Part shown: in pieces, positions 26,807 through 64,000 of the stretch
Layout of the letters: each line of letters begins with the position of its first letter
How positions within the stretch are numbered: the stretch's first letter is position 1
Assembly (NCBI RefSeq): GCF_963576615.1
Contig: NW_027045314.1
Span: forward strand, 1-64,000
Direction: 5' to 3'
Source of the DNA: Watersipora subatra
Taxonomy: Eukaryota; Bryozoa; Gymnolaemata; Cheilostomatida; Watersiporidae
DNA: 64,000 bases
Notes under the pieces: generated by a model
Seen by the model: the letters and a program-made list of their open reading frames with translations, nothing else
The model's database searches: none
What the model was told of the DNA's origin: nothing
Made by a program: the position numbers and the translations under genes

Positions 26807-26965
26807 GTAGCCAGGTACTTTTGTAATCTATTTTGCCGGAGACAAAAGCAACATTAGATTTTTGAAAATATCTGTTTTAATAGATAAAATATATGTGAAT
26901 TCCATGTCCAAAATTCAAAAAGTTGTAATTACTATCACACAAGTTATGGTGAAATAAGTGAATTT

Positions 26966-26990
26966 TGGCCAACGGTGCCCCGGTTACCCC
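26966..26990. repeat. Pogo-like element, right terminal inverted repeat
   Basis: Reverse complement of the left end with one mismatch over 25 bp. It ends ...GGTTACCCC immediately before TA. Confidence 0.93.
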
Positions 26991-39800: not shown

Positions 39801-40554
39801 TGACAAGGTATGATCAGTCCTCCTATCCAACATTTAAGGAACTTCTGAATGAATGACAAGGTATTATCAGTCCTCCTATCCAACATTTAAGGAATTTCTG
39901 AATGAATGACAAGGTATTATCAGTCCTCCTATCCAACATTTAAGGAATTACTGAATGAATGACAAGGTATGATCAGTCCTCCTATCCAACATTTAAGGAA
40001 TTTCTGAATGAAAGACAAGGTATTATCAGTCTTCCTATTCAACATTTAAGGAATTTCTGAATGAATTGCAAGGTATTATCAGTCCTCCTATCCAACATTT
40101 AAGGAATTTCTGAATGAATGACAAGGTATTATCAGTCCTCTTATCCAGCATTTAAGGAATTTCTGAATGAATGACAAGGTATTATCAGTCCTCCTATCCA
40201 ACATTTAAGGAATTTCTGAGTGAATGACAAGGTATTATCAGTCCTCCTATCCAACATTTAAGGAATTTCTGAATGAATGACAAGGTATTATCAGTCTTCC
40301 TATCCAACATTTAAGGAATTTCTGAGTGAATGACAAGGTATTATCAGTCCTCCTATCCAACATTTAAGGAATTTCTGAATGAATGACAATGTATTATCAG
40401 TCCTCCTATCCAACATTTAAGGAATTTCTGAATGAATGACAAGGTATTATCAGTCCTCCTATCCAACATTTAAGGAATTTCTGAATGAATGACAAGGTAT
40501 TATCAGTCTTCCTATCCAACATTTAAGGAATTTCTGAGTGAATGACAAGGTATT
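36841..40554. repeat. 53-bp satellite array, block 4
   Basis: About 70 units up to the left end of the giant element. The first 1.65 kb duplicate the start of block 3. The final unit stops inside GACAAGGTATT, where the giant element begins. The first 7 bp of the broken site are repeated on the far side at 60819-60825. Confidence 0.97.
40548..40554. other. Left target-site duplication of the giant element (AGGTATT)
   Basis: AGGTATT is satellite sequence and recurs at 60819-60825 directly after the element's ACTG end. Joining left and right flanks through one copy restores a normal AAGGTATTATCAG unit. The match could be an 8-bp duplication with one mismatch (AAGGTATT against GAGGTATT) if the element ends one base earlier. 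Confidence 0.75.
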
Positions 40555-40565
40555 CAGTATATCCC

Positions 40566-40735
40566 TCACCTGTACGACTATATTAGTCGATAGAGTTGTG
40601 GGCGCGGGTCGGCGTATGTGGTCGTGGTGAAAGGCTATGCGTATACGACTGATATCGTCGACAATACAACCCGCTTATAATATTGCAGTACATTCTTCAC
40701 CTGCACGACTATATTAGTCGATATAGTTGTGGGCG
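40566..40735. repeat. Left subterminal direct repeats with CGACTATATTAGTCG palindromes
   Basis: A 39-bp sequence at 40566-40604 recurs at 40697-40735 with two mismatches. Each copy contains the palindrome CGACTATATTAGTCG followed by a GTTGTGGGCG box. A related ATACGACTGATATCGTCGAC lies between them. The right end of the element has GTCGA/CGAC motifs but not this exact repeat. Such subterminal arrays are candidate transposase-binding sites. Confidence 0.8.
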
Positions 40736-40754
40736 TGTCCATCCAAGCTGACCC

Positions 40755-40972
40755 GTAGATTTTTTTGTTAGGTGCTCTGTTGTATTCGGACACCACGCGT
40801 TTTCCGGAGAAATAATTTATTATTCTTTCGTTGGACAATTCTTCAGCGCTAATAACTTGAACATAACGCTACGCTAGATAACTAGACTACTAAGCACCAT
40901 AGATTTAGGCTTAACGATACGCTAAAAGAACTTGTGCAGTTTGGTCGTGTCATGAGAAACAGAATGAGAAAA
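40755..40972 (+). repeat. Left inverted copy of the transposase 5' region and exon 1 (degenerate)
   Basis: Collinear, in inverted orientation, with 60411-60630. Shared blocks include GTTGTATTCGGACA, ACAATTCTTCAGC, CTAATAACTTGAACA and AAAGAACTTGTG, then TGGTCGTGTCA and GAGAAACAGAATGAGAAAA. It therefore spans the upstream region and coding exon 1 of the transposase. In this copy the ATG is ACG and the splice donor context AAAG|GT has become AAAATGT, so it cannot serve as that exon. Functionally it may act as part of a long terminal inverted repeat and could promote transcription toward the plus-strand gene. Confidence 0.85.
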
Positions 40973-41570
40973 TGTCCGAACTGTGCTGTACCATTTGTTA
41001 CAGTTATAGTATTTTTATTGTGTTAACTTTTATTGTATTGACAGTGTTGTCCGAAGATTTCTCCATAAAGTGAGCCTCAAATAACGAAGTAGTTGTAATT
41101 TTTTGTTTGTGAATTTCCAACATAAAAACGAACATTTTTGTGTAAGTTTTGTTAAGTACCGCGCGAGCCAGAAAACAGAAAATTATTTGTGTTGGTGCCA
41201 TCATAACCAATTAAGATTCAGCTTTTCGTGATGACACAAATAATTAAAATAGCATCATTGACTCTGATGATGGTGAACGTAATAGTTTTGGGAGAGTAAG
41301 GAACATTTTAGAGGATCGTTTTAGCTTCGAAGCGATCGTGGCTTCACATAGCTTTAGCAATGCACAAAGCGTGGATACATTGAATTTTTTTTCATAGTAC
41401 TATTGGTTAACATGTTAGCAACATAAAATATATAACGAAGTGTTCTAGATAAGTTTGAAGTTGAAGAAAAAATTGTATACATATCATGAAGAAAAATCGG
41501 CAATTTTCGGTAAAAGGCTGGCAGTAGGCCGATAGCTAAATTTGTACATGGGCAGGAGTTAAAGGGTAGC
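40973..41570. other. Left arm, non-coding stretch
   Basis: About 600 bp between the exon-1 relic and the exon-8 relic. No convincing gene. A frame open for about 47 codons at roughly 41256-41396 has no start or recognisable domain. I see no clear match to transposase exons 2-7, so if this arm was once an inverted copy of the transposase gene, those exons are deleted or decayed. Confidence 0.5.
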
Positions 41571-41830
41571 TCACAGCAAACACAATTTGGAGAGTTCAAG
41601 GCCGTGAAAACTATCTAGCAACCTCATTAGTCTTATACACAGCCAAGTTTTCAAACACTGTTGATTAAAAAACATCCAAACACAATTCAGTTGTAATGCA
41701 TTTCTGAAATTACACACCTTATAAAGACCCAGCATAGGTACCCATAAGTATAGCAAAATAAAGGGAATTGATTGGGTGCAGACTTAATTAACCCTATCCA
41801 TAAACTGATTTAGCGAGGTGGCTGTACCAT
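41571..41830 (+). pseudogene. Inverted relic of transposase exon 8 end and intron 8
   Basis: Starting at CACAGCAAACACAATTTGG, this matches the transposase exon 8 3' end (CAGCAAACACAATTCGG) and then about 230 bp of intron 8, in the opposite orientation to the working gene. Shared pieces include AACTATCTAGCAACCTCATT, AATGCATTTCTGAAATTA, AAGACCCAGCATAGGTACCC and GGTGGCTGTACCATTGAATA on the plus strand. Its order after the exon-1 relic is the gene order. The intron part also belongs to an interspersed repeat (copies at 56168-56560 and 58957-59240), so insertion of that repeat alone is a possible explanation, but the exon fragment favours a duplicated gene end. Confidence 0.75.
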
Positions 41831-42172
41831 TGAATAACGATTCAGGACATGTGTTTAATATCTTTGCTGAAGGTCATGTGTAGTTGAAAATTCATAATCA
41901 CTACCTACTACGGCTGTACTGGTAATCTAAAATTCTGAACTTAGCCATACCTTAACTTTACAATGAGAGTGATCCAGGTGACTCAAGTGTTGATTTCTTT
42001 GCTTAGACGGTACGTCAATTGGTACATATTTAACATTACAACTTTTCGACTTCATCTTGAGATTGGAGACCAGGCTCCTAGGCTGGGCATGTACCATATG
42101 AAGCGGCGCTCAGTTTATTAAAAAAAAGTTATTATCATAAATCACCAGTGAACCACGCACAAAAATCTAATA
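41831..42172. other. Non-coding stretch without recognisable features
   Basis: A+T-rich sequence between the exon-8 relic and the MITE, including a short A run near 42120. No open frame, repeat or motif that I can support. Confidence 0.5.
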
Positions 42173-42783
42173 CAGTAAAACTCGGCTAACTCGACATTCA
42201 CGGAACCGAAAGAAAGTGTTAGAGTTATTAGAGCGTTCAAGTTATGAGAACACTCACAAGTGCATGTATTGTTGTATTTATCAGTACATATACAAACTAT
42301 ATATAAATCAAAAGCATTTATGGCTTGTTTCAAGTTAAGGGACCTCTCATGTAATGTTTTAACAATTTTTATCAGAAAGTATAAATATTTTCCTCTTATT
42401 ACTTGAGATTCGTTTGTTTGTTTTTGGTGATGTGACGCTTCTCCTTGCTTGCGGAGGGCTATCCCCAAGCGGATGTTTGGTAAAATTTAATTTTTTGCTA
42501 ACCTTTAAAAAAGTCGTTAACGAAAATATTTGGCAGATAGTGGTAATAAGGACGCCTAAGAACTACTAAAAGTTGTTGTTTATCTTTATGGCTGGGAATA
42601 AAGTGATATTCTAAAGCGATAACAATCGTCTCGGTAGCCGTTGGGCAAAAAAACTTCGAATTAACGAAGTTAAGGTCGAGTTATCTAAAGCATTTTATCA
42701 TTGCGTGGGAACGGACCAAACAAATCCATTCGAGTTAACCATGTGTTCGAGCTATCCGAGGGCGAGTTATCCGAGTTTCACTG
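42173..42783. mobile_element. Tc1/mariner-pogo type MITE, 611 bp
   Basis: Starts CAGTAAAACTCGGCTAACTC and ends ...GAGTTATCCGAGTTTCACTG. The two ends are inverted repeats of about 21 bp with two mismatches, flanked by TA at 42171-42172 and 42784-42785. The CAGT ends, TA target and recurrent GAGTTA/TAACTCG motifs inside are typical of short non-autonomous pogo/Tigger or mariner relatives. No transposase is present; the antisense frame inside it is chance. Confidence 0.85.
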
Positions 42784-42992
42784 TATATGGCTTGAAGCAA
42801 TAAAGTCTCTACAATATGTCTTTTCATTTTATTGTTTGTTTTATGAACATATCTAACAGCTCATTTTATATGCTGGAAGCGGTCAGACTGTTGGGGCGTC
42901 TCCTTGTTATTACTTATATTACTGGTATCACGCTACCACCACCTCATATTTTATTGTCTGATGTTCTTTTGTCTGTTTTAGCTTGCAGCATT
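42784..42992 (+). promoter_or_regulatory. Region upstream of the chromodomain gene
   Basis: About 200 bp between the MITE and the chosen start codon. TTTTAGCTTGCAG at 42977-42987 could be a splice acceptor for a coding exon that begins just before the ATG, implying an untranslated first exon further upstream. The frame is open upstream to an ATG at 42816, so a longer N-terminus is possible. No clear TATA box can be assigned. Confidence 0.4.
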
Positions 42993-45900
42993 ATGGAAAG
43001 AAGTTGTAGCATTTGCGGTAGCACAGGAAATGTATCTAAAAATAAATGTAATGCATGTGGTAAGTTTGTCTATTTGTTTTAAAACAGTGAGCTCGCTACC
43101 CTTTTAATTCTGCAATATTTATAATAATTTGTTATGATTCACAGGCAAAGCACCCAGTCACATCAAAATAAAAGTAAGCTGTCCTTAAATTTTCCTTTTT
43201 GCATTTATTTTTAGTTGTCAAGATGAAGTGCCAGTGTGGGGCCATTAATGCCATCAATGCCACAAAGTGTAGTGCATGTCGTAAGTCTAAAACAATCATC
43301 ATTTAAAAGCTTCTGTGTTAATACTAATAGTCGTGATTGCTTTGCATGGTCTTTTAGCATAGAACTCTTTTCTTGTTTTGCCTAAATCTCACTGTTCTCA
43401 ATAACAGCTTTAGATCATCAGAACTCCACCCCATGTGGAAATGCGATGTTGGTTTAGCATGCTTTGCAGTGCCAGGTTATCCATCAATGTCAAAATGTCA
43501 AAGTTTTATTATGTTTGCGATAGTTTTATCTGTCCCCATTTATTGTTTTCACAGCTATCATCTTCCGTGATTTGAAGGCACAGACAAGGACGTCTACACT
43601 TAAGAAAAGGCGGGAGGAGGGCTGGGCTGGGAAGAAGACCACAAAATACTATGTGGATGCACTGGAGCGTGCTGTGAGTGAAGTAAAATATATTTTGCTT
43701 TACGTCAAGTTATAAGACTGACATGCCAAATTGTGTAAATAGAAAGCTTTAAATACGCTCAGGCTCAACTTTAAAACAACTTACTTTTGCGGCTGCAATT
43801 CAGGTTTTGTTTACATTAAAAATGTCCGAAAGTATGCAGATATCAAAGTATAGTAGATTCAGATACAAATGTGGTTAATGTGAAAAATCACTTGTAATAT
43901 TGGTTTTGAAGCCTTGTGATGGTGGTGACTACAACGCTATTGATTGGTCCCCTAAAGCTTAACATGCCAGTAATAGTTGCACAAGCCCAACTGAGCATAG
44001 GACAGCTTTCCTTAGTAGATGAAATGAATAAGACAACAACCCATGCAAAAGAGTTATTTTAGGAATACCTAGCATCCAAATAACTGAAAAAATAGTGCAA
44101 ATTCTCCAAGCTCAACAAATCTGAACCAGCTCACGTCTAGTGCAATGGTATATTATCAGCTAGCAGAAGATTTGCTTTTCATGTTGTTGTTGTAATTCAT
44201 GGTATGAGCGAATGTATCATACACTCTTATAATATTGTTTATGTTCATTTTTACAGGCTGCCCACGCCCACGGTGCAGGTTTATCTGTTTTATGCCTGGT
44301 ATTCAAACCTTCAGGCAAAGGTACCTTGTCTACTATTATCGAAGAAGGATGCCACCAGACTGAAATTGTGTCAGTCATCAAAGAAGCGTTCAATGACATG
44401 ACAAGATGTAGTAAGTTCCCTTGGTCTTTTCAATGTACAGCATAACTTAATTGCCTGTTTTACATTACATCCTACTCCCCTATGTGATTGTTTTGTTGCA
44501 GAAGACTATGTGCAAAGGACCTATAAACCGTATAACCCCACATCTGCTTCCACATCAGCTACTACATCAGCTTCCACATTTGCTACTTCTACATCTGCTC
44601 CCATATTAACGTCTACATCTGCTCCTACATTACCTTCTACATCTGTTCCCATATTACCTGCTACATCTGCTCCCACATTACCTTCCACATCTGCTCCCAC
44701 ATTAACTTATACATCTGTTCCCACATTACCTCCTACATCTGCTCCCACATTACCTCCTACGTCTGTTCCCACATTAACTTCTATATCTGCTCCCATATCA
44801 TCTGCTCCTACATTACCTTCCACATCTGCTCCCACATTAACTTCTACATCTGCTCCCATATCACCTGCTCCCACATTACCTTCCACATCTGCTCCCACAT
44901 TAACTTCTACATCTGTTCCCACATTACCTCCTACATCTGCTCCCACATTAACTTCTACATCTGTTCCCACATTACCTCCTACATCTGTTCCCACATTAAC
45001 TTCTACATCTGCTCCCATATCATCTGCTCCTACATTACCTTCTACCTCTACTCCCAGATCAGCTACTACTACTACTTCCTCAACCACACCAACACCTACA
45101 AAGGCTGTAAGTATAGTATTCCTAATATTTCGTCCCAAAAGAAACCAAAATTTTAAATAATACGAGATCTTTAGAGAAACAATGCATATGAATTGCTTCC
45201 CATTGTTTGGTCATCTTTCTTCATACAAATTATGACATATAAGATAGACAAACAGTTCAGAAAAACTAATACAGACCCAGCAATGAAATGTTCAATATCG
45301 TTTGTTGTAGAAAAGGTGTGCTGACAAAGCATGGCACACACAGACACACAAAGTAAGTAAAGCCATAGCTCATTTCTCACTGTCTAATTTTGTTGAACCT
45401 CAGTCAAGCAATTTCATTGCTGATATGTTTGTCTACGCCATGAGATATTTACTTTGCAGTTGACCTTTACTCAAATTTAAAGTACCCATAATTTCTGAAT
45501 GCCATTGACCTCAGTACTGTTATTTTCCAGTGTAAGCAGAGAAAAAGGCCGAATAAGCAGCGCTCTAGTAAGTAGAAAATGCTGTTTCATTTTTCATTGT
45601 CGTTGTGTTGAATCTCTTATCAATTGTACAGTAATGCGCTATGACCATGATGAAATTGACTATTTTGCTATTTTATTTTCTCTTAGAGAGGATGGCTGCT
45701 ATGCAGGTAAAACTTTTCTTCTGTGTGGTGCATAGGCAGCAAAAACTTTTGTTATTCTCTTCTTTCCTTCCCTCACCACTCTTCTTGCGAGGAGAGGTGG
45801 TAGGGGAAGGAAAGAAGAGAATAAAAAGAGTTTTTGCTGCCCATGGGTGGTGTCTTTTTTGCCTATAGTGGAATTCACAAAACAACCCTGCAATACTATC

Positions 45901-47595
45901 AATTATAACAACCTGGTGTCGTGATTTTGTTACCATTTTGTTTAACATGTCATAATTTGACATGTTTGTATTTTAATTGGCAGCCAAATAACCACAACAC
46001 AGCTTGCGTTTGCCTCACTCACTAACAGCTTTGTCATAATCACGACATGCCAACAGCCCACAGGGTGGCAGTAAATGATCAAATAACTTGCTTTCTTCAG
46101 CTAACCATGGTTGATTTCAGGTCTGATTCAGGATGGGCTTTTCGCTTGTACAAATTACTTGTTGCGCTAACATGCTGTGATATGCACTGGTTGCTAGCAG
46201 CTCAATCATTGCGTCTTTTTTCACCAAAGATATGGTTTTTCTTTGTTGTATAGGAAATACTACTCCAGCAGAATATATTAACCCAAACAATTCTGACTCA
46301 GATGCAGAAGAGATATTGAGTGAAAAGTTGGTAAGTTGATGAACAGTCAAGGGCACTTTTCCAGTGTTTTAGAGTACACATTGAAGTATACCAAGGTCCA
46401 AATCATGGTAATTTTTCGTTTTCTCATGCCAATAAACATCTATAATCCTGGGGATCTATCCTTTCGCAAAAAATTGCCTAAAAGGACTAAATTGGTTAAT
46501 TAACTGGGTATGATCATTACAAATACCTGAAATGGTGTACTCGGTAATCTATGTGTATTATTTTTAAATGACGTTCAATATCTTATGGCATTGTTTTATT
46601 AGATAGGTGCAAATTTGATCAATTTTTTGTATCAGCAATGGGTAATGTTACTGTCGAGAAAAGACAACTTGACACATATTTGGAATGCAAATTGATATTT
46701 TGTGTTCAAAAAGTTTCAACCTCTGGTCATGCATGGACTACATTCACTACCACATGTTACAATATGTTTGACATAGATTTTCTGCCCCTCCTCTCCTCTC
46801 TCTTTCACTTTTCGATTCTCATAATTTGTTTCTGAATCTTTTTCAGGACAAGAATGGTAGAACACTGTACCTGGTCAAGTGGAAACATTATTCATCACAG
46901 TAAGTCACGTCAGCCGAATGTCTATTAGGGGCGAATATTCATGGGCTGAGTCGTGACTAAAATCCATGCTTTTAGTCATGACTCAGCTTCAGCCAGTCAA
47001 TACGATGAAAATAACAATTTAGCAGAGTATACACAAATCAGGATTATCAACAATAGAGCAATTGATGCTGTATTGAGTTGTCATTTATTTATTTAGTCAT
47101 TGCTGCAACAAAGCACAATGACCTTATGTTAAGAGCGGAAACATGTAGCATCTTAAAACCCACCAGCTGATCAGACTAATAATCATCTCAATTTTATTTT
47201 GTTGCAGAAGTAACACCTGGGAGCCCTCTAGAAATCTCAAACAAACTTTGGCACTGCTAAACTATAAGGTGAGTTTAGCCAGTTACACAAGCAAAAAGTG
47301 CTTTGCTGAAAGTCTTATTGTTTACCTAATCATTGATAAAGATCGCCACAATCATGGAGTCAAATCTGCACCCCATTCATGGCTATATGTCGCCCGATTT
47401 TTGTCACGTAATGCATTCATATCATACAAGTTAGTTGCAAGGACATCAGCCGAAAAGAGTATCGCCTCCCCAGCTGAATCATCATATAGCCATGTGTTTT
47501 TACTGGGTAACTAATGCACATCTTGTTTTGTCACTTCAGACAGCATTTCTTTACCGTTTTTCCTTCTTTTGCAGGAACATGTCCAGTCAACATGA
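42993..47595 (+). CDS. Zinc-knuckle and chromodomain protein carried by the giant element (11 exons, 426 aa)
   Basis: Exons read by eye: 42993-43059, 43145-43173, 43223-43280, 43555-43673, 44257-44410, 44502-45106, 45531-45567, 46254-46330, 46847-46899, 47208-47268, 47575-47595. All introns are GT-AG and the frame is kept to TGA. Residues 5-22 form CSIC...CNAC and 35-51 form CQC...CSAC, two probable zinc knuckles. Residues 52-142 are a domain I do not recognise, with a basic start (LKKRREEGWAGKK). Residues about 150-335 are Ser/Thr/Pro repeats (STSAPTLP). CKQRKRPNKQR at 345-355 may be a nuclear signal. Residues about 373-414 are a chromodomain: EEILSEKL, YLVKWKHYSS, NTWEPSRNL. The W394 and Y397 cage aromatics are present; the first cage aromatic is not obvious. 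Chromodomains bind methylated histone tails; a tethering role for the transposase is inference. An upstream in-frame ATG at 42816 is an alternative start. Confidence 0.8.
44550..45060 (+). repeat. Coding minisatellite for the Ser/Thr/Pro linker
   Basis: Imperfect 24-bp units (ACATCTGCTCCCACATTACC and variants) inside exon 6, encoding STSAPTLP, STSVPTLP, STSAPI and similar. All copies keep frame, so the linker has expanded as protein. The open antisense frame over the same bases is a mirror of the repeat and not a gene. Confidence 0.9.
45735..45841. repeat. Intronic hairpin, about 50-bp arms
   Basis: GGCAGCAAAAAC and a C/T-rich run (45735-45785) pair with a G/A-rich run ending TTTTTGCTGCC (to 45841), with a few mismatches and a short centre. 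It lies in intron 7 of the chromodomain gene. Probably a small foldback element; no target duplication is clear. Confidence 0.85.
46946..46986. repeat. Short intronic hairpin
   Basis: CTGAGTCGTGACTAAAA (46946-46962), a 7-base loop and TTTTAGTCATGACTCAG (46970-46986), one mismatch in 17. It lies in intron 9 of the chromodomain gene, about 50 bp after the exon 9 donor. Confidence 0.85.
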
Positions 47596-48189
47596 CCAGC
47601 AACTCCTATCTGCCACCAGCAAGCATCCACATACACAGACATTCTTTACTTGTATAATGTAAAAATATGTAATATAATAGTAATATAATATATCAATTAA
47701 TAATCAACAGAAAATAACACTTTGTTGCAATAATCAATTCATCAGATCAAACTACCCGGCTTGCATTATTCTATTTGAGGATTGATAACAATAGGAAGAA
47801 GAAATAGAATAGAACGGAATCTTGCTTACTCTTGAGTGGAGTTCCCTACACAGCTTTGTTGTGATCCTTTGTGTAATCTTATAATTATGTTCAATAAAAG
47901 TGATCACAGGGACCCCCTACACATAACCACAACATTCTAACACAATTCTAACCTGTTGTCCAATCAGGTTGATTTATGCAACTTGCTCACCTGCTTAGTC
48001 CATACAAACCATCATAAAGTTTTCGAAGCCTTAGGATGTGCACTGATGTGGTCCAGAACAGTTTTGTAAATCACTGCTTTTTTGGTAAGGCAGTGATGGC
48101 TGAAAGTGTCATGGCTGTCTCACTGGTGCGGACACCTGCAGGTATGAATAGACAACTCCAGAGTAGATGGATAATATTTATCTATTAAT
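47596..48189 (+). other. 3' region of the chromodomain gene
   Basis: Follows the stop codon. Contains AT-rich sequence and a candidate polyadenylation signal at 47893-47898. Nothing else supported. Confidence 0.5.
47893..47898 (+). terminator. Candidate polyadenylation signal (AATAAA)
   Basis: AATAAA about 300 bp after the chromodomain gene's stop codon, followed by a TGTG-poor, A-rich stretch. Plausible but unproven. Confidence 0.5.
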
Positions 48190-50270
48190 AACGAATTTCT
48201 ACAATTCTTGTCCCACATGTCTAAAAACTTGGTATTTATACTGCTGAGCCATGTTAATACTCAATATTATTTCAGTGTTGCTACATTTGCGTTAGTTCCC
48301 ATGTAAACAGTGAAATATATTCAGGATTTATCTCCCCCTTGTGTTGCCTGTAATAGTTGAATATTTTAATAATTCAACTCAGTAGATACAGTAGGCTTAT
48401 TGAAATGCATTTTAGTCATTTTTACTTGTATCTTGAGAAATTGAAATGGTTAAAACTAGGTGCCCGACTTGCTTCTCCATACAAATCACAATACTTGTGG
48501 AAACCTATTACTTTATTTACTCATGTAGCCCTGAATAGTTTTGTGAGAATGAACTTTTACAATTTTTAGGCCACGTGTATAAAAACTTGGTATTTATACC
48601 GGTGAGCCTTGTTAATACTGAATATTACTTCAATATTGCTACATTTGCCTTAGTTCTTATGTAAACAGTGAAAGATATTCAGGATTTATCTCCCCCTTGT
48701 GTTGCCTGTCATAGTTGAATATTTTAATAATTCAACTCAATAGATACAGTAGGCTTATGGAAATGCATTTTAGTCATTTTGACTTGTACCCTGAAAAAAT
48801 TGAAATGGTTAAAATTAGGTGCCCGACTTGCTTCTCCATGCAAATCACAATACATGTGGAAACCTATTATTTTATTTACTCATGTCGCTCTGAATAGTTT
48901 TGTGAGAATGAATTTTTACAATTTTTAGGCCACATGTATAAAAACTTGGCATTTATACTGCTGAACTATGTTAATACTGAATATTACTTCAATATTGCTA
49001 CATTTGCCTTAGTTCTTATGTAAACAGTGAAAGATATTCAGGATTTATCTCCCCCTTGTGTTGCCTGTCATAGTTGAATATTTTAATAATTCAACTCAAT
49101 AGATACAGTAGGCTTATGGAAATGCATTTTAGTCATTTTGACTTGTATCCTGAAAAAATTGAAATGGTTAAAATTAGGTGCCCGACTTGCTTCTCCATGC
49201 GAATCACAATACTTGTGGAAACCTATTATTTTATTTACTCATGTCGCTCTGAATAGTTTTGTGAGAATGAATTTTTACAATTTTTAGGCCACATGTATAA
49301 AAACTTGGCATTTATGCTGCTGAACTATGTTAATACTGAATATTACTTCAATATTGCTACATTTGCCTTAGTTCTTATGTAAACAGTGAAAGATATTCAG
49401 GATTTATCTCCCCCTTGTGTTGCCTGTCATAGTTGAATATTTTAATAATTCATCTCAATAGATACAGTAGGCTTATGGAAATGCATTTTAGTCATTTTGA
49501 CTTGTATCCTGAAAAAATTGAAATGGTTAAAATTAGGTGCCCGACTTGCTTCTCCATGCAAATCACAATACTTGTGGAAACCTATTATTTTATTTACTCA
49601 TGTCGCTCTGAATAGTTTTGTGAGAATGAATTTTTACAATTTTTAGGCCACATGTATAAAAACTTGGCATTTATACTGCTGAACTATGTTAATACTGAAT
49701 ATTACTTCAATATTGCTACATTTGCCTTAGTTCTTATGTAAACAGTGAAAGATATTCAGGATTTATCTCCCCCTTGTGTTGCCTGTCATAGTTGAATATT
49801 TTAATAATTCAACTCAATAGATACAGTAGGCTTATGGAAATGCATTTTAGTCATTTTGACTTGTATCCTGAAAAAATTGAAATGGTTAAAATTAGGTGCC
49901 CGACTTGCTTCTCCATGCAAATCACAATACTTGTGGAAACCTATTATTTTATTTACTCATGTCGCCCTGAATAGTTTTGTGAGAATGAATTTTTACAATT
50001 TTTAGGCCACATGTATAAAAACTTGGCATTTATACTGCTGAACTATGTTAATACTGAATATTACTTCAATATTGCTACATTTGCCTTAGTTCTTATGTAA
50101 ACAGTAAAAGATATTCAGGATTTATCTCCACCTTGTGTTGCCTGTCATAATTGAATATTTTATATAATGGATACAGGAGGCTCATTGCAATGGATTTTTT
50201 GTCATTCTCACCTGTATCCAAAGGTATCAAAATAGTTAAAACTAGGTGCCCGACAGGCTTGTTATGACAT
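48190..50270. repeat. 359-bp tandem array, about 5.8 copies
   Basis: A 359-bp unit repeated head to tail. Landmarks such as CAGGATTTATCTCCCCCTTG and AGGTGCCCGACTTGCTTCTC recur every 358-359 bp. Central units are almost identical; the first and last are more diverged, as expected for an array homogenised by unequal exchange. Each unit has a frame of about 60 codons starting at TTG, present only because the unit is repeated and with no sign of protein constraint. The array sits between the convergent gene ends. Confidence 0.95.
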
Positions 50271-50877
50271 TCTCACCTATTGTCGCATGGCCTAGACTCA
50301 CCTGAGAGGGGTTGTCCATTTTATTCTGGCTGATAACATATGTGACCCAGGCAGTCAGAATGTACAATTGTGCTAAAACCACATTTTTGAGTTATTTAAA
50401 GATTTAAAATCAGCAAATTCTGAGGATTTTAATGCATTTTATATTTTTTTAAATTGGATTATTTATACCCAGGTTAGGCAAGATTTAGTAGAGAAGGTCT
50501 CATGATAAACTAAAACTGTTGTTTTGAGTTTAATCAGAATAAAGTTGGTGATTCATGAACTGTAAATCATGGTATTTTCTTACAAATCAAAATGCCATAG
50601 CAACCAACCACTAAATCTCAACCTATATTGATGAAACCCGGCATTCTTCACAATAAAACCTTGAAACAGATGATCGTTGCATTTTTATTCCAATTCGATT
50701 GACAGTTGACATCCCAAAGGTCATGGTAAGGTTAACAATATATGTGGCTAAAAGCTCACCGTCCTGGATGTATTCATTAAAAGGGTATGCTTCAAACTGG
50801 GCAATTCTCATCAAGCTATATTGCTATGACTGCATTTAATGACAGTCCAACAACTTAACAAAGAGCTGGATGTGTAT

Positions 50878-51430
50878 TCAGAATTGTCCACCTATACAGA
50901 AGGTCGTGGTAAGGTCAACGATGCGGAAAATATGTGATGCGAAAATATCAACCCAACTCATCAAGTGACTATTCAATCTAGAGCTCTTTTTATGTAGTTT
51001 AACACTCACACAGTGTAGCACAAGTACGCTGCAGAGATTTATTGTAGCACATTGGAGAGGTTTGTTTGTTATGCTAGCGGCAATTTGTCTCAACGCAACC
51101 ATATCCAATGTTTCCTTCGGCAATCGTTGATATACAGTTCTAATGAGGCTTAATTGTTCAGATGACATAAAACTAGCGCATAATTCCCTACACTTGCACC
51201 CACTTATTAGTTTGATGTCAACAGCTAGAATGGGAATGTTATCAGCAGTGATAGGCTGATCGTTATTCTCTGTAATTTGATTTAATTAATTCGCATTATC
51301 GTTAGCAGCCACATACTGCGTAAGCAGCTGTATTTCTAAGGTTGACCTATTATCATAATTCTCATCATCGCTTTCACTATGATCTGAGGCAGCTGACTCA
51401 GATTCTAAGTAGAAATACTCATCTAGCATC
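50878..51430 (-). pseudogene. Decayed coding remnant, unknown family
   Basis: Reading on the minus strand from about 51430: an acidic segment (SESESAASDHSESDDENYDN), then a stop near 51285, then an open stretch to 50878 containing ISGCKCRELC and SSEQLSLIRTVYQRLPKETL, TLDMVALRQIAASITNKPL. I do not recognise the family. The acidic start, stop codons and position inside a transposon suggest the remains of a transposon protein. Confidence 0.45.
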
Positions 51431-51603
51431 AACAAGCCGTAATTTGGCGATTGTTTATTTCGTTCTAGCCTGAAGCATTAAAAGAGGAAATGGCCACATA
51501 CATGCGCGCACCCGCAGTTAAAGCCTACAGTTGTGATCTTGGGTTATGAAAAATTCCATAGCAACCACCAATATGGGTATAGTCAGAGCCGTATACGTAG
51601 TTG

Positions 51604-51951
51604 CACAGAGTCCCGTGACCAAAAGCCGGAAACAAAAACGCTTGATTCCAAACAAACCCGATCGACATGCTGATCTCTAATGGAATATTCTTACCTCGCT
51701 CTCAACATCTCACTCTTTTGCATTTACTTATTACAAAAAATAATTTGTGGTTTCTTGTAGAAAATTTTGTCCTTTTTCAAGTGGTGTATAATACAACTAT
51801 CAATTTCAAAGCGACTGCTAATGGGAGTAGTTTTTGTTGATTAATGTTGCGGCTTCTACATTATAACTTATATAAAACTAGTAGGCGTGGCCTGTTTGTT
51901 TGGAATCGAGCTCCCTCCCGTATACGCTTCTGTTGGACGCCGGACTCTGTG
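51604..51951. mobile_element. Nested inverted-end element (MITE-like), about 348 bp
   Basis: Starts CACAGAGTCC, with GATTCCAAACAAACC about 40 bp in. It ends with the inverted pair GTTTGTTTGGAATCGAGC ... GGACTCTGTG. The arms match in blocks rather than base for base. It has no coding capacity. Nested in the 1.8-kb transposon. Confidence 0.65.
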
Positions 51952-52233
51952 AAACCAGACGACACTGGGTATAGCTAAATGGCAATTCTGGATTTATGAT
52001 TGGTCAGACACAAAAATAAACAAGACCATGTAAAAGAGCAGGGTTGAATGCACTGTAAACCACTGTTTACTAAAATAGTGACGGTGAGTCATATAATAGC
52101 GTGAAGCACGCTTAGCGCGCTATTGTGAACAATGGAATTACCGCACGATTGTACATTCTGACGGCCGGGGTCACATGTACTAAAGGTTATACAAAAGACA
52201 TTTCGTTTATTATTGAGAAATAAATTAATATAC

Positions 52234-52239
52234 TTTATT
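52234..52239 (-). terminator. Candidate polyadenylation signal of the transposase gene
   Basis: AATAAA on the minus strand 76 bp after the transposase stop codon, with a second one at 52206-52211. Confidence 0.6.
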
Positions 52240-52314
52240 ACAATATTGTTTTGTGAAGATCAGCATAAAAAGTAATACAGAAAGTAGATCAGCATACATG
52301 TAAATCATGGCATT

Positions 52315-55300
52315 TCAATCCCCATAAAAACTTCCATCAGAGTCATCGTCGTCCTCGTCATCATCAGATACATCTAAGTCCTGGCATAGTGATACAGCTA
52401 GCTGCATATCCTAACAATAGAATAATTCAATGAATGAAATCATAAGTAAATCATAGGTAAATCATCGGTCATGGCATAAATAATACTGGATGTTTTTTAA
52501 ATCTGTCATTTGCTGCTATATGAAATGTTGTTGCTGACTGGCAAACAGTGATTGGCAAAAGCTTGATCACTATTGCGATACTGTTCTTCCCCAATTTAAT
52601 AGTACGTACCTCAACTTCCTCAGAGAAGAAAACAGAGGATTTTTCGACCATGTTTTGAAGAAATATGGCCTCTTCTCCATTGCATGTATCAAGTTGCTGG
52701 ACTGAAAATGAAGAGGACCAAATTAGCCAGAAATCTGAACTCAGAATTCAACTAAATACTTAAAAAAGTATCTTATGTTTCAACGTGATGTTGTAGACAA
52801 TTTGTTATAGAATGGACCTGCTAAAAACAACTGAGACATCACTATTGATACTATATCATGTATATTAAGCATCTACAAACACGGATGAGAAACTCACCTA
52901 TTGTTCTTATCATTGTATGCCTTTCCTGTTCTAGAATAGGGATTTCTTCTACAGTTCTCTGCCACAATTGATAGCTCTCCACTGCCTTAAGAACATCCTG
53001 TGAGAAGGTTATATCTGAAACATCAAAAAGTGACATCAGCATGGCTTGCTAATATAGGATTTTCATGTGTAAAAGTTGAACAAGGAATGTCTAGATTTGT
53101 TGCGGGGAATTGATATTTCATGAAAAAACTTACCTCCACGGACAACTGCCCATGGGAATAACCCTGACTTCAAACAGCTTTGCAGCTTTTCTGTTGTCGT
53201 TTCTGGATGGAGGTTGCTGTATTCTAAAGCCTTTTTCTTATAGCTGCAATGGTTTGCACGCAGACGCGATCTCAACTTCTGTGCAATTTTTCCACTCTCT
53301 GTTAATATAAACAGAAATTACATTCTCGATAACACAATACATAGAAAAATTTTAACTTTGATTTTTTTTCAGAGAGATCACCTGACAAACCTACCTGATT
53401 TCTTAAGAACATCTTCTTGCCGCAGGATATTGACTCTGAGGTCTTCTAAGACAGCTTGTATGTTATCTGGTTCTGAAAGATAATACAATATATCAATCAC
53501 AACATTCTAATCATACATCTATATGTATACTTCTCAAAGTATGTATGTGTGTATTCCGGCTATAGCTACTATTAAAATTGCTATTATTAAAATAGCTACA
53601 GCTGGACAATGCTGACGCAACATCATGGCGTATGTCATTAGAAGCCTAACGCTTATTAGCAAGCTTAATGGAATTTTCCAGTGGCAGTGTGCCAGGCTAA
53701 TAGCAAAGTGGCAGGTAGCCTGTCTTGACAAAATGTTGTTTTTTGTAGGGTTGTCCCCCGTCGAGCGGGCGAGCAACAAAACAGCTTGTCAAAAGACGTA
53801 CTGCACCTGATGCATCAGCTGCACTTATAGGGAGTTGTTCTTGTTCTCTTCCGTCTATGCGGCTTGGTGGCAATGCTATGTCGGTCGCTCCATTGGTAAT
53901 CATAACCGATTTCGCGCAAAAAATTATGTAGAAAGAAATAAGATTACAACGTTTAACCAAAGACTGTTGGTTGTTTACAACTCTGTTGTAAACTTTAGTA
54001 GAATTTAAGAATAAAACAAATTGAAAATAAAATCCATAAGAACAAATAAAACTGACTGATACAAAAATAGAAATTAAACTGACCGAGCGCACAAATAATG
54101 ACATGTTTAGTCGCTGTTGTTGCCTAAGTTCTCAAGTTCTACTAAAGTTTATCGCAGAGACTGGTCGCTAGTTAAGAGTTATAATCTTATTTCTTTCTAC
54201 ATAATTTTTTGCGCGAAATCAGTTATGATTACCAATGGAGCGACCGACATAACATTGCCACCAAGCCGCATAGACGGAAGAGAACAACTCCCTATAAGTG
54301 CAGCTGATGCATCAGGTGCAGTACGTCTTGTGATAAGCTGTTGGGTTGCTCGCCCGCTCGACGGGGGACAACTACGCAAAAACAACAGTTTGTCAAGACA
54401 GGCTAAGTGGCAGGCAACTCTCATCACTCCTCATTGTTTATAAGCTGATTTTTAATACCCGGGCAACGCCGGAGGCACAGCTAGTTGTTACTATAAACTA
54501 CAATGAGCATCTTTCACCATGAAACGTGAAACGTCATCTTTGCATCAGGGCCTCATATTATTCATACTCATATTATTATGAGCATTATCATGAAATACAA
54601 ATCATCCACTGCTAATTGACACAGAAAAACAATCATTTACTCTCTAAGCATGCGGAAATAGTATAAGTAAAAAACTCACTTGGCGGCGGCTTGGCAACAA
54701 GGATTGCTCTGGCCTCAAGTTCAGCTAAAGTTAATCCAATTGAGTGGCAGTGTGCATCCACTTGTGCCTCTAGAATGGGTAGTTGTTTCTTGGCCTAAAA
54801 CGAGACGTACTCGGCACTATAATTCTTCACTTGTTGTATAACTGCAATAAAGCCAATTATTTATTGAGAAAGCTTGGCTTTTTGTCAATAGTTAAAACAA
54901 ATTGAACCTGGGTAACAGTACGATTTCATCCTATGATTGCTGTTTCTACATACTTTGGAAAGAGATGTAAATATCTGTTTGGGCAGATTGACAAACTTTC
55001 GGAGATTCCAAAAAGCTGCCCCTTGCTCCAAGCGTCTCCGTCTACCTTGAAACAAGAGAATAAATTGGGAAGTCATACCATTGACAAGTTGGCACTTAGG
55101 CACAATAGGCGCCAAAGTCACCAATGTGTATTGTCATTAACCAAGTTATAAAACATATCACAGTGGTACAATACATTTAACATTGTCAAATGCAAAGCTA
55201 ATAACTTACCCGATAGGTTTTAACTATCGGGTAAGTTATTAGCTTACCCGACAGTTAAGGCCTAAAAAATACCTCCCTTGACAATATATAAAATAGTGCT

Positions 55301-58300
55301 CACTGAATAAACTCACCATCTGATGTCATGTGTCTTGTTACTTTTCCCAATCGGGACATGTAGCTATTAACAAGTTCTGTAGTCTCCCCAGTACTTAATC
55401 CTGTTCCTACAGTGACTCTTCCACTCCATTTCATCTGAAAAAAGCAAAAAAAGAAAATTTTGGTAATATGAAACTTAAAGTAAAGTAGATGAACGATTAC
55501 TATATTCATTAGACAGATTACTGACAACTCCAACGGTGAGCTTTATTCATTAGACAGATTACTGACAACTCCAACGGTGAGCTTTATTCATTAGACAGAT
55601 ACCTGACAACTCCAACGGTGAGCTTTGGCGTGCATGATACTAAGGAACGGGCGTTGCTGCTGTGGTAGCCTCTCCAGCCGCTCTAGCCAAGGCCAGTATC
55701 TGCACATTGTATCAAGGGCAATGAATTTTGCACCTTGAAATTCTCTCTAAAAACATAATACATTAGCTTTATGGAGGGAGCATCGTAGCAAAAACTATTT
55801 AAGATTTCTGCAATAGAAAGACCATTGTAATAAGTAGACAGACATTCCTGTTGCCAGAAAAGAAGTTGTAGGTTTTAGGGAGGTTTGTGAATTTTTTCTG
55901 TGACAATAAAAAATGTTGACTGGACCGATGATGATGTATTATGGACAACCACCAATACCTGCATAGTGTATGGATACGCGTATATCTCCCCCCTAGTCAT
56001 ATCCAATCCCTTCAACAGAAAACAGTGGCGGCATGTGGCTAGCAAACAACCAGTCACATCCTTCTTGGAGAATGCTTTTCCTTTGGCAGACGCAGCCTTC
56101 CAAACCGTATCACCACATCTATTGGAGACCTGTAATAACGATCTAGGTAATTGAGGTTTATAAAGACAACCACAATTGGCCAGGTTCATTGGCTATAGAC
56201 CAGGACTTCCCAGCAGTTATCTTTTCAAGATATTCCATATAGTTTTTAAAATATTCTAAATTTGCCCATCAAACTTACTAAGATTTTTTTAACTTGGGTG
56301 GATGGCAGCACTATCAATTCAGTGCACTGATTGGTTATTCAATGGTACAGCCACCTTGCTGTATGGGGTTTATTAGGCCTGCAACCAAACAATTCACTTG
56401 ATTCTGCTATACCTATGGGTACCTATTCTGGGTCTTCATAAGGTATGAGATTTCAGAAATGCATTACAACTGAATTGTGATTGGATGGTTTTTAATCAAC
56501 AGGGTTTAAAAACTTGGCTGTGATTAAGACTAATGAGGTTGCTAGATAGTTTTGACGACCTTAAACTCACCGAATTGTGTTTGCTGTTCTCTATACGCGT
56601 GACCTGCTCTTCAACGTCACTAGTGGAAACAAAAAACTCACTTGGCTCCTCAATTCCTGATGAAACTCTAAGATCAATGACAAGAATCAAATTAAAAATG
56701 AATAAACAAAGGCTTCCTCTTTGAATTACTACACAATAGCCCCACTTGAGAAATCTAGTAATAGAATGCGAATAATATAGTTGCACATCAAAACTTTAAA
56801 CACACAACATCATATTAAAAGCGTTGGGTGCGTCCAAACATTTTATATGCTGAATGGAGCTAGTGCTTAGTAATTTGAAGATTGGATGATAGGCAGAACC
56901 CACTGTCCCAAAATGAAATTAACCCATATTAAATTGTTACTATCTGTAAACACAGAGAATGCAAAAATCTGATATATGGTTTTTTCATTAGATATCATAC
57001 CTGCCGGCAGCTCTATAGTGAAATAGTTTTGCATTCCCGTCAATGTGAATCGCATGGGGCTCGTCCAAACATGCAGGGCAACTGAACAAACTACCACCGG
57101 TAGCTTTAGATAAATAGTCTGTCTCTTGAATCCTCCATTCCGACATTGAATAGTTGAAGACATCTTGTTTGAGCATGAAACTCTAAATAACAACACAACA
57201 CCTTTCAAATCTAATGGAAAAGTCAAAGAAATGTCACAAAAGACTCTTTGTCTAGTTTTTCTGCTAATTGGATCCTTGCTTGATGACAAATGCGGCATTG
57301 CGCAAGTTGGCTGACTATATAGCTCGACACTCTACACGTTATATAATGATGATATCACTAACATCCACTGTGAACATAACGATCAGATGTAATACCTCGC
57401 CATCCAAGGATGAGATAAAGCTGACGGAATCCAACAGACTTTTAAGGCTTAGAGATGGTGAGAAGTGCTGCAGGATTGAAGCACTCAGAAGAAAACTGAA
57501 GTTGAAGTAGGCTCTTCCCTCAACGTCAACAGGCCAAAGTCCATACTGGACCAGCTGTTGAGGCTCCCGCCAAGAAGACCACGAACAGGCCTCACAGACC
57601 ATAACGTCTATTTTTTGGCTGACCATCCCTGAAAGATTAGTTCAGTTTTTACAAACACAAAAAACATTAGCCTATTCTAGTACAGCTAACTAGGGTAGCC
57701 TATGTTAGTACAAGTAACCCAGGGTAGCCTATACTAGTACATCTAACCTAGAGTAGCCTATTCTAGTACAGGTAACCTAGGGTAGCCTATACTAATATAG
57801 GTGACCTAGTGTAGCCCATGTTAGTACAGGTAACCTAGAGTAGCCTATGTTAGTACAAGTAACACAGGGTAGCCTATACTAGTACATCTAACCTAGAGTA
57901 GCCTATTCTAGTACAGGTAACCTAGGGTAGCCTATACTAATATAGGTGACCTAGTGTAGCCCATGTTAGTACAGGTAACCTAGAGTAGCCTATGTTAGTA
58001 CAAGTAACACAGGGTAGCCTATACTGGTACATATAACCTAGAGTAGCCTATGTTAGTACAAGTAACCCAGGGTAGCCTATACTAGTACATCTAACCTAGA
58101 GTAGCCTATTCTAGTACAGGTAACCTAGGGTAGCCTATACTAATATAGGTGACCTAGTGTAGCCCATGCTAGTACAGGTAACCTAGAGTAGCGTATGTTA
58201 GTACAAGTAACACAGGGTAGCCTATACTGGTACATATAACCTAGAGTAGCCTATGTTAGTACAGGTAACCTAGGGTAGCCTATAATACTAATACAGCTAA

Positions 58301-60473
58301 CCTAGTGCTCGTAAAGCTAACCTTTGCTAGTATAACTAATCAATTCAGTTGAAAACATACCTTCAAAAGAAATAATTCTAACCATCTCATATCTACCAGG
58401 TGGACAGAACACGGTTCCATTGCAGTCTGGGCAAACCTGATGAATGGCAGACTGACGATCATCTGTAAAATTATATGAAAAATGAAAAACATAATCGCCT
58501 TTTATTATCTTCTGAATTTGTGATATATATATATTCGACATATTCTTGATCATCTCAGATAACGGAATAACACGGGGATGCTCACCAACTCTCATTTTTC
58601 GCACTCTCATTCCATCTGCAAACAATCTCCCAATCTCCTCTCGGTGAAGATCCCAATTCCCTTTCTGGGTCTGGATGTAAGTCTTCTTACGGTGTCTCAA
58701 TGACTTTAGTCTGGTCAAAATAGTTTCATCTACAATAACACATTAGATAGTACAACCAGTGTGTTAGTTAAACATGAATATTAATAAATTATAAGATGTA
58801 TGAGGAAACAAATATTCATTTTACAACCTCTCAGACATGTAAAAGGACCAATCAGATTGCAGCAGACTCATTATAGCGGTAGATTCAAGCTTGTTCAGTC
58901 AAATGACCTTAGGTCTAAGATTTTTGGCAATACAAACAGCCAGCCATGCACAAATGCCACAAAACCTAGCCAGCTTCATTGGCTATAGACCAAAACTGTC
59001 CATACCAAGTCTTTTCTAGAGACCACATGTAGGTTTCAAGATATTCTATTTGAGCAGTAGGCAGCACTTGATTTGATTGACCTTGACCAGTCCTATCATC
59101 GTGTGAGTGCAATGATTCATTGGTACAGCCACCTTGTATAAGTTTTGCTAAATGGGTATAAGGGTATGGTTAATTAAGCCTGCAACCAATCGATTCACTT
59201 GATTCTGATAATCCCCGTGGTAGGTGTGCTGGGTCTTTATTACCTATGCATCCTGTGTTTGTTATGACATCACCTCCACTGCCATCACCAACTTCCATAT
59301 CACAAGCTGACGTATCTATAATATGAAAATCAATATTGGTAATTAAAAAATACAAACAAGAATAGAAAGCACACAACAGCACATTGATTTAATAATAGTA
59401 TTTCCTTTGCTGCGGCTCTCACCTGTAAAAGTGGTTGCTGCTATTCTACTGTTGTCAATTGCATTCTTCAATTTATGGAGACTCTCCTGGGCTTTTTTTT
59501 TGCTCTTACTCTGCCTCTTCTCTTGAAACATACAATGCATGTTAACAACTAGGCAAGAATCATGATACCCATAATTACGCTACACATGGCATATTAATAA
59601 AACTGCATCACTGTCAAACTTTTTGACAGTGTGGTAGTTCATGATAAATGCTCAAAAAATATAAAGCCAGCACTGGGCCTTGCTGAACCAACGTGTAGTG
59701 TCTCATTACTTACTTTCCAATTGATCCTAAACGCCAGTTCAAGGCATGTAGGGTATATTAACCTGTATCACCGAGTATTAACTGAGCTCTGAGTAAAGTG
59801 AATCAAAGTATAGTTGTTGGCATAAAATGAGGGTTATAAAGTGGTAAAAACTATATATACGAGTATTTATGTATCATCAGTCCGATTGTCTAAGGCCAAA
59901 GGTGATATAAATGATATATATGAGTATTTGTGCATATCAGTGAGTATTATTAGTCTGATTGTCTGTGGGCAGAAAATATATTTTAACTTGGTTTTTAATG
60001 CGATTGTAAAAGCTAAATCGCCACACATTTGTTCGGTGTTGGTGGCTTAATATCTTACTTCTAGTATCATGTGTCACAAGTGCAAATTTAATGTATTCAT
60101 TTAATTGTATGTTATAGAGACTCGCTTCAATTTTTCTCAGAAATAGGGTATCCAGACTGCCTCGCCTGTCACTCAGAAAAATAATTTCATTTTCGTCGCG
60201 GCATTTTGTTATACTAGCTCTTTTACGGAGCCAGAAAATCATTCACCAAAGGTTACCAAATACAAGCCCATCCATTATCATAAGTCAAGATTGAATAAAC
60301 CAACTTTAAATACATAAATAATTATATATGATATTGAATATATTAATTTTAGTAAAGAATAACAAAAAAATAATGGTTTATAGTCAAATATAACAAATGG
60401 TAAAGTACAGACCTTTTCTCATTCTGTTTCTCCTGACACGACCAGACTCCACAAGTTCTTTGAGCGTTTCCAT
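52315..60473 (-). CDS. KDZ-family (Kyakuja-Dileera-Zisupton) transposase, 18 exons, 725 aa, apparently intact
   Basis: Exons in gene order: 60473-60413, 59521-59423, 59315-59244, 58729-58586, 58462-58361, 57628-57396, 57182-57001, 56667-56571, 56129-55959, 55746-55603, 55434-55317, 55045-54954, 54794-54680, 53472-53395, 53298-53134, 53014-52898, 52701-52610, 52410-52315. All introns are GT-AG, lengths sum to 2,178, and there is no internal stop. N-terminus is basic (VRRNRMRKEKRQSKSKKKAQ). C136/C139, C145 and C171/C174 form a cysteine cluster like those upstream of KDZ cores. CPAC 272-275 and DGN at D285, VTGCLLATCRH 355-365, LDTMCRYWPW with D399, MHAKAH 425-430 and GLSTGETTE with E452/E455 give a likely DDE triad. 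The C-terminus is helical and charged, ending in an acidic DDDEDDDD tail. It should cut and join the element's ends in the nucleus. Family call rests on remembered motifs; exon edges are by eye. Confidence 0.85.
53717..54405. mobile_element. Foldback element in transposase intron 13
   Basis: Arms 53717-54010 and 54130-54405 are inverted copies with scattered differences, including TGTCTTGACAAA, GCACCTGATGCATCAGCTGC, CTCTTCCGTCTATGCGGCTT and ATTTCGCGCAAAAAATTATG, around a spacer of about 120 bp. Just outside the right arm lies TACCCGGGCAACGCCGG and then CAGCTAGT, which resembles the 3' ends of Helitron-like elements; that link is inference. Open frames on both strands inside the arms are mirror images and not genes. 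Confidence 0.85.
55198..55242. repeat. Perfect 19-bp palindrome in transposase intron 11
   Basis: CTAATAACTTACCCGATAG (55198-55216), a 7-bp spacer, then its exact reverse complement (55224-55242). A third, imperfect half (CTTACCCGACAGTT) follows at once. A perfect pairing this long in an intron could be a protein site or the trace of a tiny foldback element. Confidence 0.92.
55507..55627. repeat. 41-bp tandem triplication covering the end of transposase exon 10
   Basis: Units start at 55507, 55548 and 55589. The unit includes the last 18-23 bases of exon 10 (minus strand AGCTCACCGTTGGAGTTGTC) and the first intron bases. In the exon-proximal unit the boundary reads CAG|GTATCTG, a working donor. 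In the other two it reads CAGTAATCTG, which has no GT. Only one donor is usable. Confidence 0.9.
56168..56560. repeat. Interspersed repeat, copy A (fills most of transposase intron 8)
   Basis: Shares TTCATTGGCTATAGACCA, TTTTCAAGATATTC, ATGGTACAGCCACCTTG, GCCTGCAACCAA and ATTCACTTGATTCTG with the repeat at 58957-59240, in the same orientation. Also matches the left-arm relic at 41571-41830 in inverted orientation. It covers about 390 of the 441 bp of intron 8. No inverted ends or A tail are seen; class unknown. Confidence 0.85.
57668..58315. repeat. 29-bp minisatellite with 145-bp higher-order unit
   Basis: Units such as GTAGCCTATGTTAGTACAAG plus AACCCAG repeat every 29 bp through intron 5 of the transposase gene. 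Sets of five variant units recur at 145 bp (for example GGGTAGCC at 57722 and 57867). Non-coding. Confidence 0.95.
58957..59240. repeat. Interspersed repeat, copy B (transposase intron 3)
   Basis: Same family and orientation as copy A (CTTCATTGGCTATAGACCA, ATTGGTACAGCCACCTTG, CAATCGATTCACTTGATTCT, GCTGGGTCTTTA). It ends a few bases from the exon 3 donor at 59244. The intron's first bases (GTAATAAAGACCC) align with repeat sequence, so the repeat may supply part of that splice site. Confidence 0.85.
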
Positions 60474-60630
60474 GAGTCAAAATCTATAAGACTTAGTAGT
60501 TTACTAGTCTTGCGAAGCGTTGTGTTCAAGTTATTAGTGCTGAAGAATTGTCAAGCAAAATAATAAATATTTATCCCTTCGCAAGCGGTGCTGTCCGAAT
60601 ACAACAGCGCATCTAACAAAAAAATTCTAC
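60411..60630 (-). repeat. Right inverted copy: transposase upstream region and exon 1
   Basis: Inverted partner of 40755-40972. On the minus strand it holds the working ATG (60473-60471), coding exon 1 to the donor at 60412, and about 150 bp upstream including GATAAATATTTATTATT, a possible A+T-rich core promoter element. Because it matches the other end, the transposase promoter and first exon may lie within the element's terminal repeat. Confidence 0.82.
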
Positions 60631-60818
60631 TGCTCGGCATAGATATAGAGATAAAACGCAACTTTCCATTGGGTGCAGAATCGTTAGGGACAATTCGACC
60701 GTATGCGTCGTAGAACGCCCATCGACGAGATCAGGCGACCATGAAGCACGACCGATTTCGTGGATAAGCTACACGCGTCTATCGACCGTTTTGAGCGTAT
60801 GAACTGCGGTATGGACTG
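60631..60818. other. Right terminal region of the giant element
   Basis: The last 188 bp to ACTG are richer in G+C than the interior and carry several TCGAC/GTCGA motifs (for example ATTCGACCGTATGCGTCG and CTATCGACCG). The reverse complement starts CAGTCCATACCGCAG and aligns only loosely with the left start CAGTATATCCCTCAC. No gene is present; the antisense frame that runs into the satellite is chance. Confidence 0.6.
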
Positions 60819-63800: not shown

Positions 63801-64000
63801 TCCTATCCAACATTTTAGGAATTTCTGAATGAATGACAAGGTATTATCAGTCCTCTTATCCAACATTTAAGGAATTTCTGAATGAATTGCAAGGTATTAT
63901 CAGTCCTCCTATCCAACATTTAAGGAATTTCTGAATGAATGACAAGGTATTATCAGTCCTCCTATCCAACATTTAAGGAATTTCTGAATGAATTGCAAGG
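60819..64000. repeat. 53-bp satellite array, block 5 (continues past the window)
   Basis: Same satellite resumes with AGGTATTATCAG, the right target duplication, and runs to the window end, about 60 units. Rare variants (TGAATGTATGAC at 62559, ACATTAAGG at 62646, TTCGGAATG at 62817) match block 3 at 33525, 33612 and 33783, a constant offset of 29,034, so part of this block is a paralogue of 31.9-33.8 kb. Confidence 0.97.

Follow-up and report, generated by a model that had tools for sequence, protein, structure and literature searches.

The window analysed here is the whole stretch of 64,000 nucleotides at positions 1 to 64,000 of contig NW_027045314.1 of the bryozoan Watersipora subatra (assembly GCF_963576615.1). 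A 53-bp satellite array occupies positions 1-40554 and 60819-64000 and continues past the window through the remainder of the 86-kb contig. It flanks a block of 20,264 bp (40555-60818) with two convergent predicted genes, a transposase gene on the minus strand and a chromodomain gene, hereafter gene 2, on the plus strand. We are highly confident that this block is a full-length, probably autonomous DNA transposon of about 20 kb, belonging to the KDZ (Kyakuja-Dileera-Zisupton) group and inserted in the satellite array. The second gene is inherited with the element.

Structure of the element and its transposase gene

The boundaries and repeats of the element are as follows.

40555..60818 (no strand): whole transposon, 20,264 bp; both ends common to copies, end duplication
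40548..40554 (no strand): left target-site duplication AGGTATT
60819..60825 (no strand): right target-site duplication AGGTATT
40555..40604 (+): 50-bp unit at the left terminus, occurring again 131 bp inwards
40686..40735 (+): the same left-end unit of 50 bp again, 90%
40741..41000 (no strand): left subterminal inverted repeat arm
60391..60644 (no strand): right subterminal inverted repeat arm, holds transposase exon 1
48193..50168 (no strand): tandem array with a 359-bp unit, separating the convergent genes
57668..58283 (no strand): tandem array with a 29-bp unit, within an intron of the transposase gene

In the window the tips of the element are CAGTATATCC on the left and GGTATGGACTG on the right. 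The left junction reads ...GACAAGGTATT and then CAGTATATCC, the right one GGTATGGACTG and then AGGTATTATCAG, with AGGTATT as a direct repeat at both. When the block was excised in silico together with one AGGTATT, the satellite came back into register, its unit being matched at 110 of 113 bases. As terminal inverted repeats, the tips agree over 3-4 bp only. The subterminal inverted repeats, of about 255 bp each, start some 175-190 bp inside either end; their arms align with a score of 302, and none of 200 shuffles scored above 38. Satellite on either side, a repeated AGGTATT, inverted segments inside the ends and CAGT...ACTG tips had all been pointed out in a first-pass annotation of this DNA. 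The first three were found again as described; the tips hold for the window copy, their symmetry occurring otherwise in only one of the 26 copies considered below.

Gene models were obtained with a gene finder run with raised penalties, followed by manual phase checks. The predicted transposase gene has 18 exons (2250 nt, 749 aa), with GT-AG introns, consistent phases and a sole stop at the end. This agrees with the first-pass annotation, which had described an 18-exon gene keeping frame at all junctions and free of lesions in this copy. Its exons are given in coding order.

60413..60473 (-): exon 1 (predicted)
59423..59548 (-): exon 2 (predicted)
59199..59315 (-): exon 3 (predicted)
58586..58729 (-): exon 4 (predicted)
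58361..58462 (-): exon 5, CxC3 begins
57396..57628 (-): exon 6, CxC3 cysteine cluster
57001..57182 (-): exon 7, IDGN motif
56571..56667 (-): exon 8 (predicted)
55959..56129 (-): exon 9, CRH; KDZ
55603..55746 (-): exon 10, LDTMCRYW, MHAKAH
55317..55434 (-): exon 11, GLSTGE; KDZ
54954..55045 (-): exon 12 (predicted)
54680..54794 (-): exon 13 (predicted)
53395..53472 (-): exon 14 (predicted)
53134..53298 (-): exon 15 (predicted)
52898..53014 (-): exon 16 (predicted)
52610..52701 (-): exon 17 (predicted)
52315..52410 (-): exon 18 with stop codon

Single reading frames gave KDZ matches at E 1.2e-6 and 4.4e-4 and a CxC3 match at 8.2e-5, below its cut-off. On the spliced 17-exon protein, to which exon 1, lying inside the right inverted repeat, was added to give the 18-exon model, the KDZ domain PF18758 was found at E 1.5e-28 (100.4 bits, cut-off 26.6) over profile positions 5-217 of 217, and the CxC3 zinc cluster PF18804 at E 3.4e-7 (30.5 bits, cut-off 26.6). 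The KDZ identity that had been proposed is thus upheld by profile comparison. The motifs IDGN (at 308), LDTMCRYW (422) and GLSTGE (471), as well as CRH and MHAKAH, are present and reportedly hold the catalytic residues; the KDZ domain is reportedly an RNase H-like DDE enzyme. With its KDZ domain, CxC zinc cluster and defined ends bordered by a short duplication, the element is, judging from its sequence, a member of the KDZ superfamily. No relatives were found in viral or prokaryote contigs.

Several further features of this DNA were noted. At 40886-41026 the left arm encodes a peptide similar to that of exon 1 (60413-60473), without a start codon, and the same DNA may serve both as coding exon and as end sequence of the element. 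A 41-bp unit found at the end of exon 10, including the splice donor region, occurs three times in 55500-55626, and the AG|GTAT donor is kept only in the copy adjoining the exon. One transposase intron contains a fold-back element (53709-54412) with inverted arms that are 89-94% complementary; these arms are present in at least six other copies, which implies that the fold-back was fixed before those copies spread. The segment 50340-52176, bounded by 49-bp inverted arms of 80% complementarity, includes a broken frame with a CKCRELC motif and is probably an old nested element or relic. A third gene, considered at 50881-51477 (-), was rejected: its two frames have no Pfam match, are separated by a stop and lie inside the arms 50340-50388/52128-52176. 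Outside the element, an insert of about 2.3 kb occurs twice in the satellite (24712-27117 and 34562-36967), 99.85% identical and with the same satellite flank, and an internally deleted version lies at 27859-28627. One of its frames resembles, by eye, a pogo-type transposase; the insert seems to have been amplified together with the satellite.

Copies of the element in the genome

The search covered the element's own genome (783.7 Mb, 239 contigs), in which copies are labelled by contig and Mb position (for example C9:1.76). With the first 1001 bp as left-end query, at least 41 places were found, a lower bound since 40 of 4306 candidates were scored; 35 that covered at least 90% of the query were kept and six shorter ones dropped. 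The last 1000 bp, as right-end query, gave 40 places; 34 of these extend to the right tip or close to it and were used, and six stopping short were dropped. When left and right ends had to lie no more than 45 kb apart on one contig and one strand, 26 of the 35 left ends could be paired, with spans of 18-25 kb in 18 pairs, 7.2-16.5 kb in five and 29-35 kb in three.

Exact target duplications border 12 of the 26 pairs, seven of them 7 bp and five 8 bp long, and three further pairs have near matches (7/8, 6/7 and 6/8). By a hand estimate, chance would give about 0.002 such cases (26 x 4^-7), and the 12 found therefore exclude a chance origin. A single family thus yields both 7-bp and 8-bp duplications; the final base of the exact ones, which adjoins the left tip, is a pyrimidine in 12 of 12. 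The right tip is GGGCTG in 23 of the 26 copies and GGACTG in the window copy and its nearest sister, while one copy is devoid of it. The 60-bp flanks of the copies are unrelated, with the exception of one right flank common to two of them. These copies, which share their ends and in 12 cases have exact 7-8 bp duplications of the AGGTATT kind, support the earlier proposal that the block moved as one unit, the mobile unit being about 19-20 kb long.

Eight other copies were read at length. Inserts of 4.6-6.2 kb are present in four of them, and as the four are without mutual similarity they are best seen as later insertions into a core of about 19-20 kb; a longer ancestral element behind the copies of 23-24 kb was rejected on the same ground. 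In four right ends, at loci that include C9:1.73-1.76 and C8:0.048-0.072 Mb, the match to the query starts no earlier than base 332, a pattern suggestive of a nested insert held in common and of subsequent recombination or duplication. The copies at C2:65.6, C9:21.0, C8:54.2 and C8:8.45 Mb, at different loci, are 99.68-99.92% identical over about 2.5 kb, which indicates recent spread; three of the four have exact duplications. Two further KDZ-domain places, C5:50058911-50059237 and C5:50295733-50296062, each with two in-frame TGA, lie outside the described copies.

Gene 2 and competing explanations

The 12 predicted exons of gene 2 (42993-47595) lie on the plus strand and converge on the transposase gene; their phases are consistent and they encode 440 aa. 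The product would contain a pair of short Cys clusters and a Pro/Ser/Thr array, encoded by 24-bp units, and would have a chromodomain at its C terminus.

42993..43059 (+): exon 1, Cys cluster
43145..43173 (+): exon 2 (predicted)
43223..43280 (+): exon 3, second Cys cluster
43555..43673 (+): exon 4
44257..44410 (+): exon 5
44502..45106 (+): exon 6, Pro/Ser/Thr-rich 24-bp repeat array
45311..45352 (+): exon 7 (predicted)
45531..45567 (+): exon 8 (predicted)
46254..46330 (+): exon 9
46847..46899 (+): exon 10, chromodomain
47208..47268 (+): exon 11, chromodomain
47575..47595 (+): exon 12 with stop codon

On a joined piece of gene 2 the chromodomain PF00385 was found at E 1.8e-13, and among solved chains the closest is that of the Clr4 chromodomain (E 1e-10). 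The aromatic residue that precedes the first strand in Clr4 has no aromatic partner in the alignment, which makes lysine binding by the gene 2 chromodomain uncertain. Three matches to gene 2, at C9:5.8, C7:45.8 and C4:51.9 Mb, fall outside the listed element ends. Exon 6 varies from 311 to 734 nt across nine sequences, the window included, always in frame and without stops; the array units being multiples of three, an in-frame array is by itself weak evidence.

Gene 2 might be a captured host gene that travels as a passive passenger and is no working part of the element, an explanation that we find doubtful and nevertheless deserving of attention. Chromodomains are common among host domains, and the best solved relative is that of Clr4. 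The constraint on gene 2 is also weaker than that on the transposase: over the eight copies its codons show 21 synonymous and 24 replacement changes, three of the eight have an indel of one codon outside the array, and the donor of exon 6 is GC in two of the nine sequences. On the other hand, all 26 element pairs, older elements included, enclose one or more matches to gene 2 exons, and decayed matches are still present in the C5:7.35 Mb element, whose left end is 83% identical. Moreover, no substitution stop was seen in the eight copies outside the array, and none in the array exon.

As for the element itself, several observations weigh against a full-length, autonomous transposon. No duplication was found in 11 of the 26 pairs. 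The copies at C9:1.76 and C8:0.048 Mb have one right flank in common, different left flanks and no duplication, so that one or both arose by recombination or segmental duplication, which has therefore also acted on the family. In the search of solved structures none matched the transposase, and a whole-genome profile search listed only the two other KDZ places mentioned above, and not the present family. Both gene structures are predictions from DNA alone. One-base frameshifts affect the transposase in four of the eight copies, in exon 2 (C178, C2:27.2 and C9:0.15) or exon 6 (C9:1.76); C9:0.15 has in addition a second frameshift and a changed start codon, and C2:27.2 is without later exons. 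Finally, exon substitution rates are close to those of introns, being lower in six copies and higher in two by small margins.

These frameshifts speak for an alternative in which the window copy is dead cargo of a genuine KDZ family, mobilised in trans by others, as is reported to be the presumed case for giant families (PMC12477816). We nonetheless regard this as unlikely. The window copy has no frameshift, and no indel occurs in the covered codons of C8:30.6 (750/750), C2:27.6 (750/750) and C6:19.3 (710/750), while C2:65.6 has only an in-frame +6 difference. Substitution stops are absent from the covered transposase codons of all eight copies. Summed over eight comparisons that are not independent of each other, there are 90 synonymous codon changes and 57 replacements, whereas without selection each synonymous change should be accompanied by 2.7-3.7 replacements (about 1:3); the decayed copy C9:0.15 Mb has 12 synonymous and 18 replacement changes. 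Indel sites number six in exons as against 67 in introns. The apparent constraint thus sits in the kind of change and in the indels, not in the substitution rate, and present activity of the element is plausible. It is highly improbable that the block is no transposon at all but a piece of the host genome multiplied through segmental duplication or satellite amplification: the satellite insert copied with its flanks and the one common right flank speak for this reading, but it was rejected as the main explanation on the exact ends, at which copies stop at the same bases, the otherwise unrelated flanks and the exact duplications, the shared-flank pair showing only that such duplication also occurred.

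Relation to known KDZ elements and proposed role of gene 2

KDZ elements reach 30.3 kb in Ectocarpus, and a 31.7-kb element of Chlamydomonas, as cited in the same article, was seen to transpose (PMC12477816). In Pristionchus the Zisupton genes comprise 18 and 31 exons, and their products are of 1166 and 1367 aa (PMC9297572). Duplications of 7 bp are described for Kyakuja, whose tips are CA...TG and which lacks terminal inverted repeats, and of 8 bp for Zisupton and Dileera (PMC12730594); those of Cryptococcus KDZ1-KDZ3 are 8 or 4-8 bp (PMC12810828). On the strength of these accounts, the size, introns and duplication length of the window element fall within the known KDZ range. The first-pass annotation had considered its size and intron number unusual, a view that is not borne out, both being ordinary for KDZ (PMC12477816, PMC9297572).

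With Zisupton of fish, Pristionchus and fungi the element shares the KDZ domain, many exons and, as far as part of its family goes, 8-bp duplications (PMC9297572, PMC12730594), but 7-bp duplications make up 7/12 exact cases (8-bp 5/12), its very tips match over only 3-4 bp, it carries a convergent chromodomain gene and its transposase is shorter, at 749 aa, than both Pristionchus proteins (PMC9297572). Fungal Kyakuja resembles it in CA...TG tips that lack terminal inverted repeats and, for part of the family, in 7-bp duplications (PMC12730594); unlike Kyakuja, the present family also has 8-bp duplications and long subterminal inverted repeats, and no TET/JBP gene was recognised in the window element, no search aimed at TET/JBP having been made. 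Cryptococcus KDZ1-KDZ3 likewise combine KDZ with a cysteine cluster in the transposase and have similar duplications, but they are 9-11 kb long, with terminal inverted repeats of 139-241 bp and CxC1 in place of the CxC3 of the window element (PMC12810828). The giant KDZ elements of Ectocarpus and Chlamydomonas are alike in size, accessory genes and nested insertions; their hosts, however, are brown and green algae, and the chromodomains mentioned in the Ectocarpus passages considered are on Gypsy elements (PMC12477816). A search of the open literature for a chromodomain with Zisupton or KDZ found no KDZ chromodomain, which does not establish its absence from print. The element falls into an established family of exceptionally large transposons, for which gene 2, with its chromodomain, is a possibly new accessory gene.

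Ends and duplications of this kind are ordinarily read as the outcome of cut-and-paste transposition with a cut staggered by 7-8 bp. The zinc cluster of the transposase would bind the left-end repeats and subterminal inverted repeats, and the KDZ domain would cut at CAG...CTG and insert the element at a target site whose strands are cleaved 7-8 bp apart, the gaps being filled by host repair. The chromodomain protein probably helps with chromatin, either as a tether to marked histones or as a guard against silencing.

It is tempting to speculate, although we would put this forward only tentatively, that the family represents a two-protein KDZ lineage, in which a transposase and its own zinc-cluster/chromodomain reader have been co-inherited since before the oldest copies diverged, the reader recognising histone marks to steer integration or escape silencing. 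Among DNA transposons this would, if true, be the equivalent of the chromodomain integrases known from Gypsy elements. A complete and recently spread giant KDZ family, with an intact-looking transposase gene, clear ends and many copies, lends itself well to tests of how a cut-and-paste element of 20 kb is mobilised, and through its co-inherited chromodomain gene a connection of a DNA transposon with chromatin marks can be put to the test.

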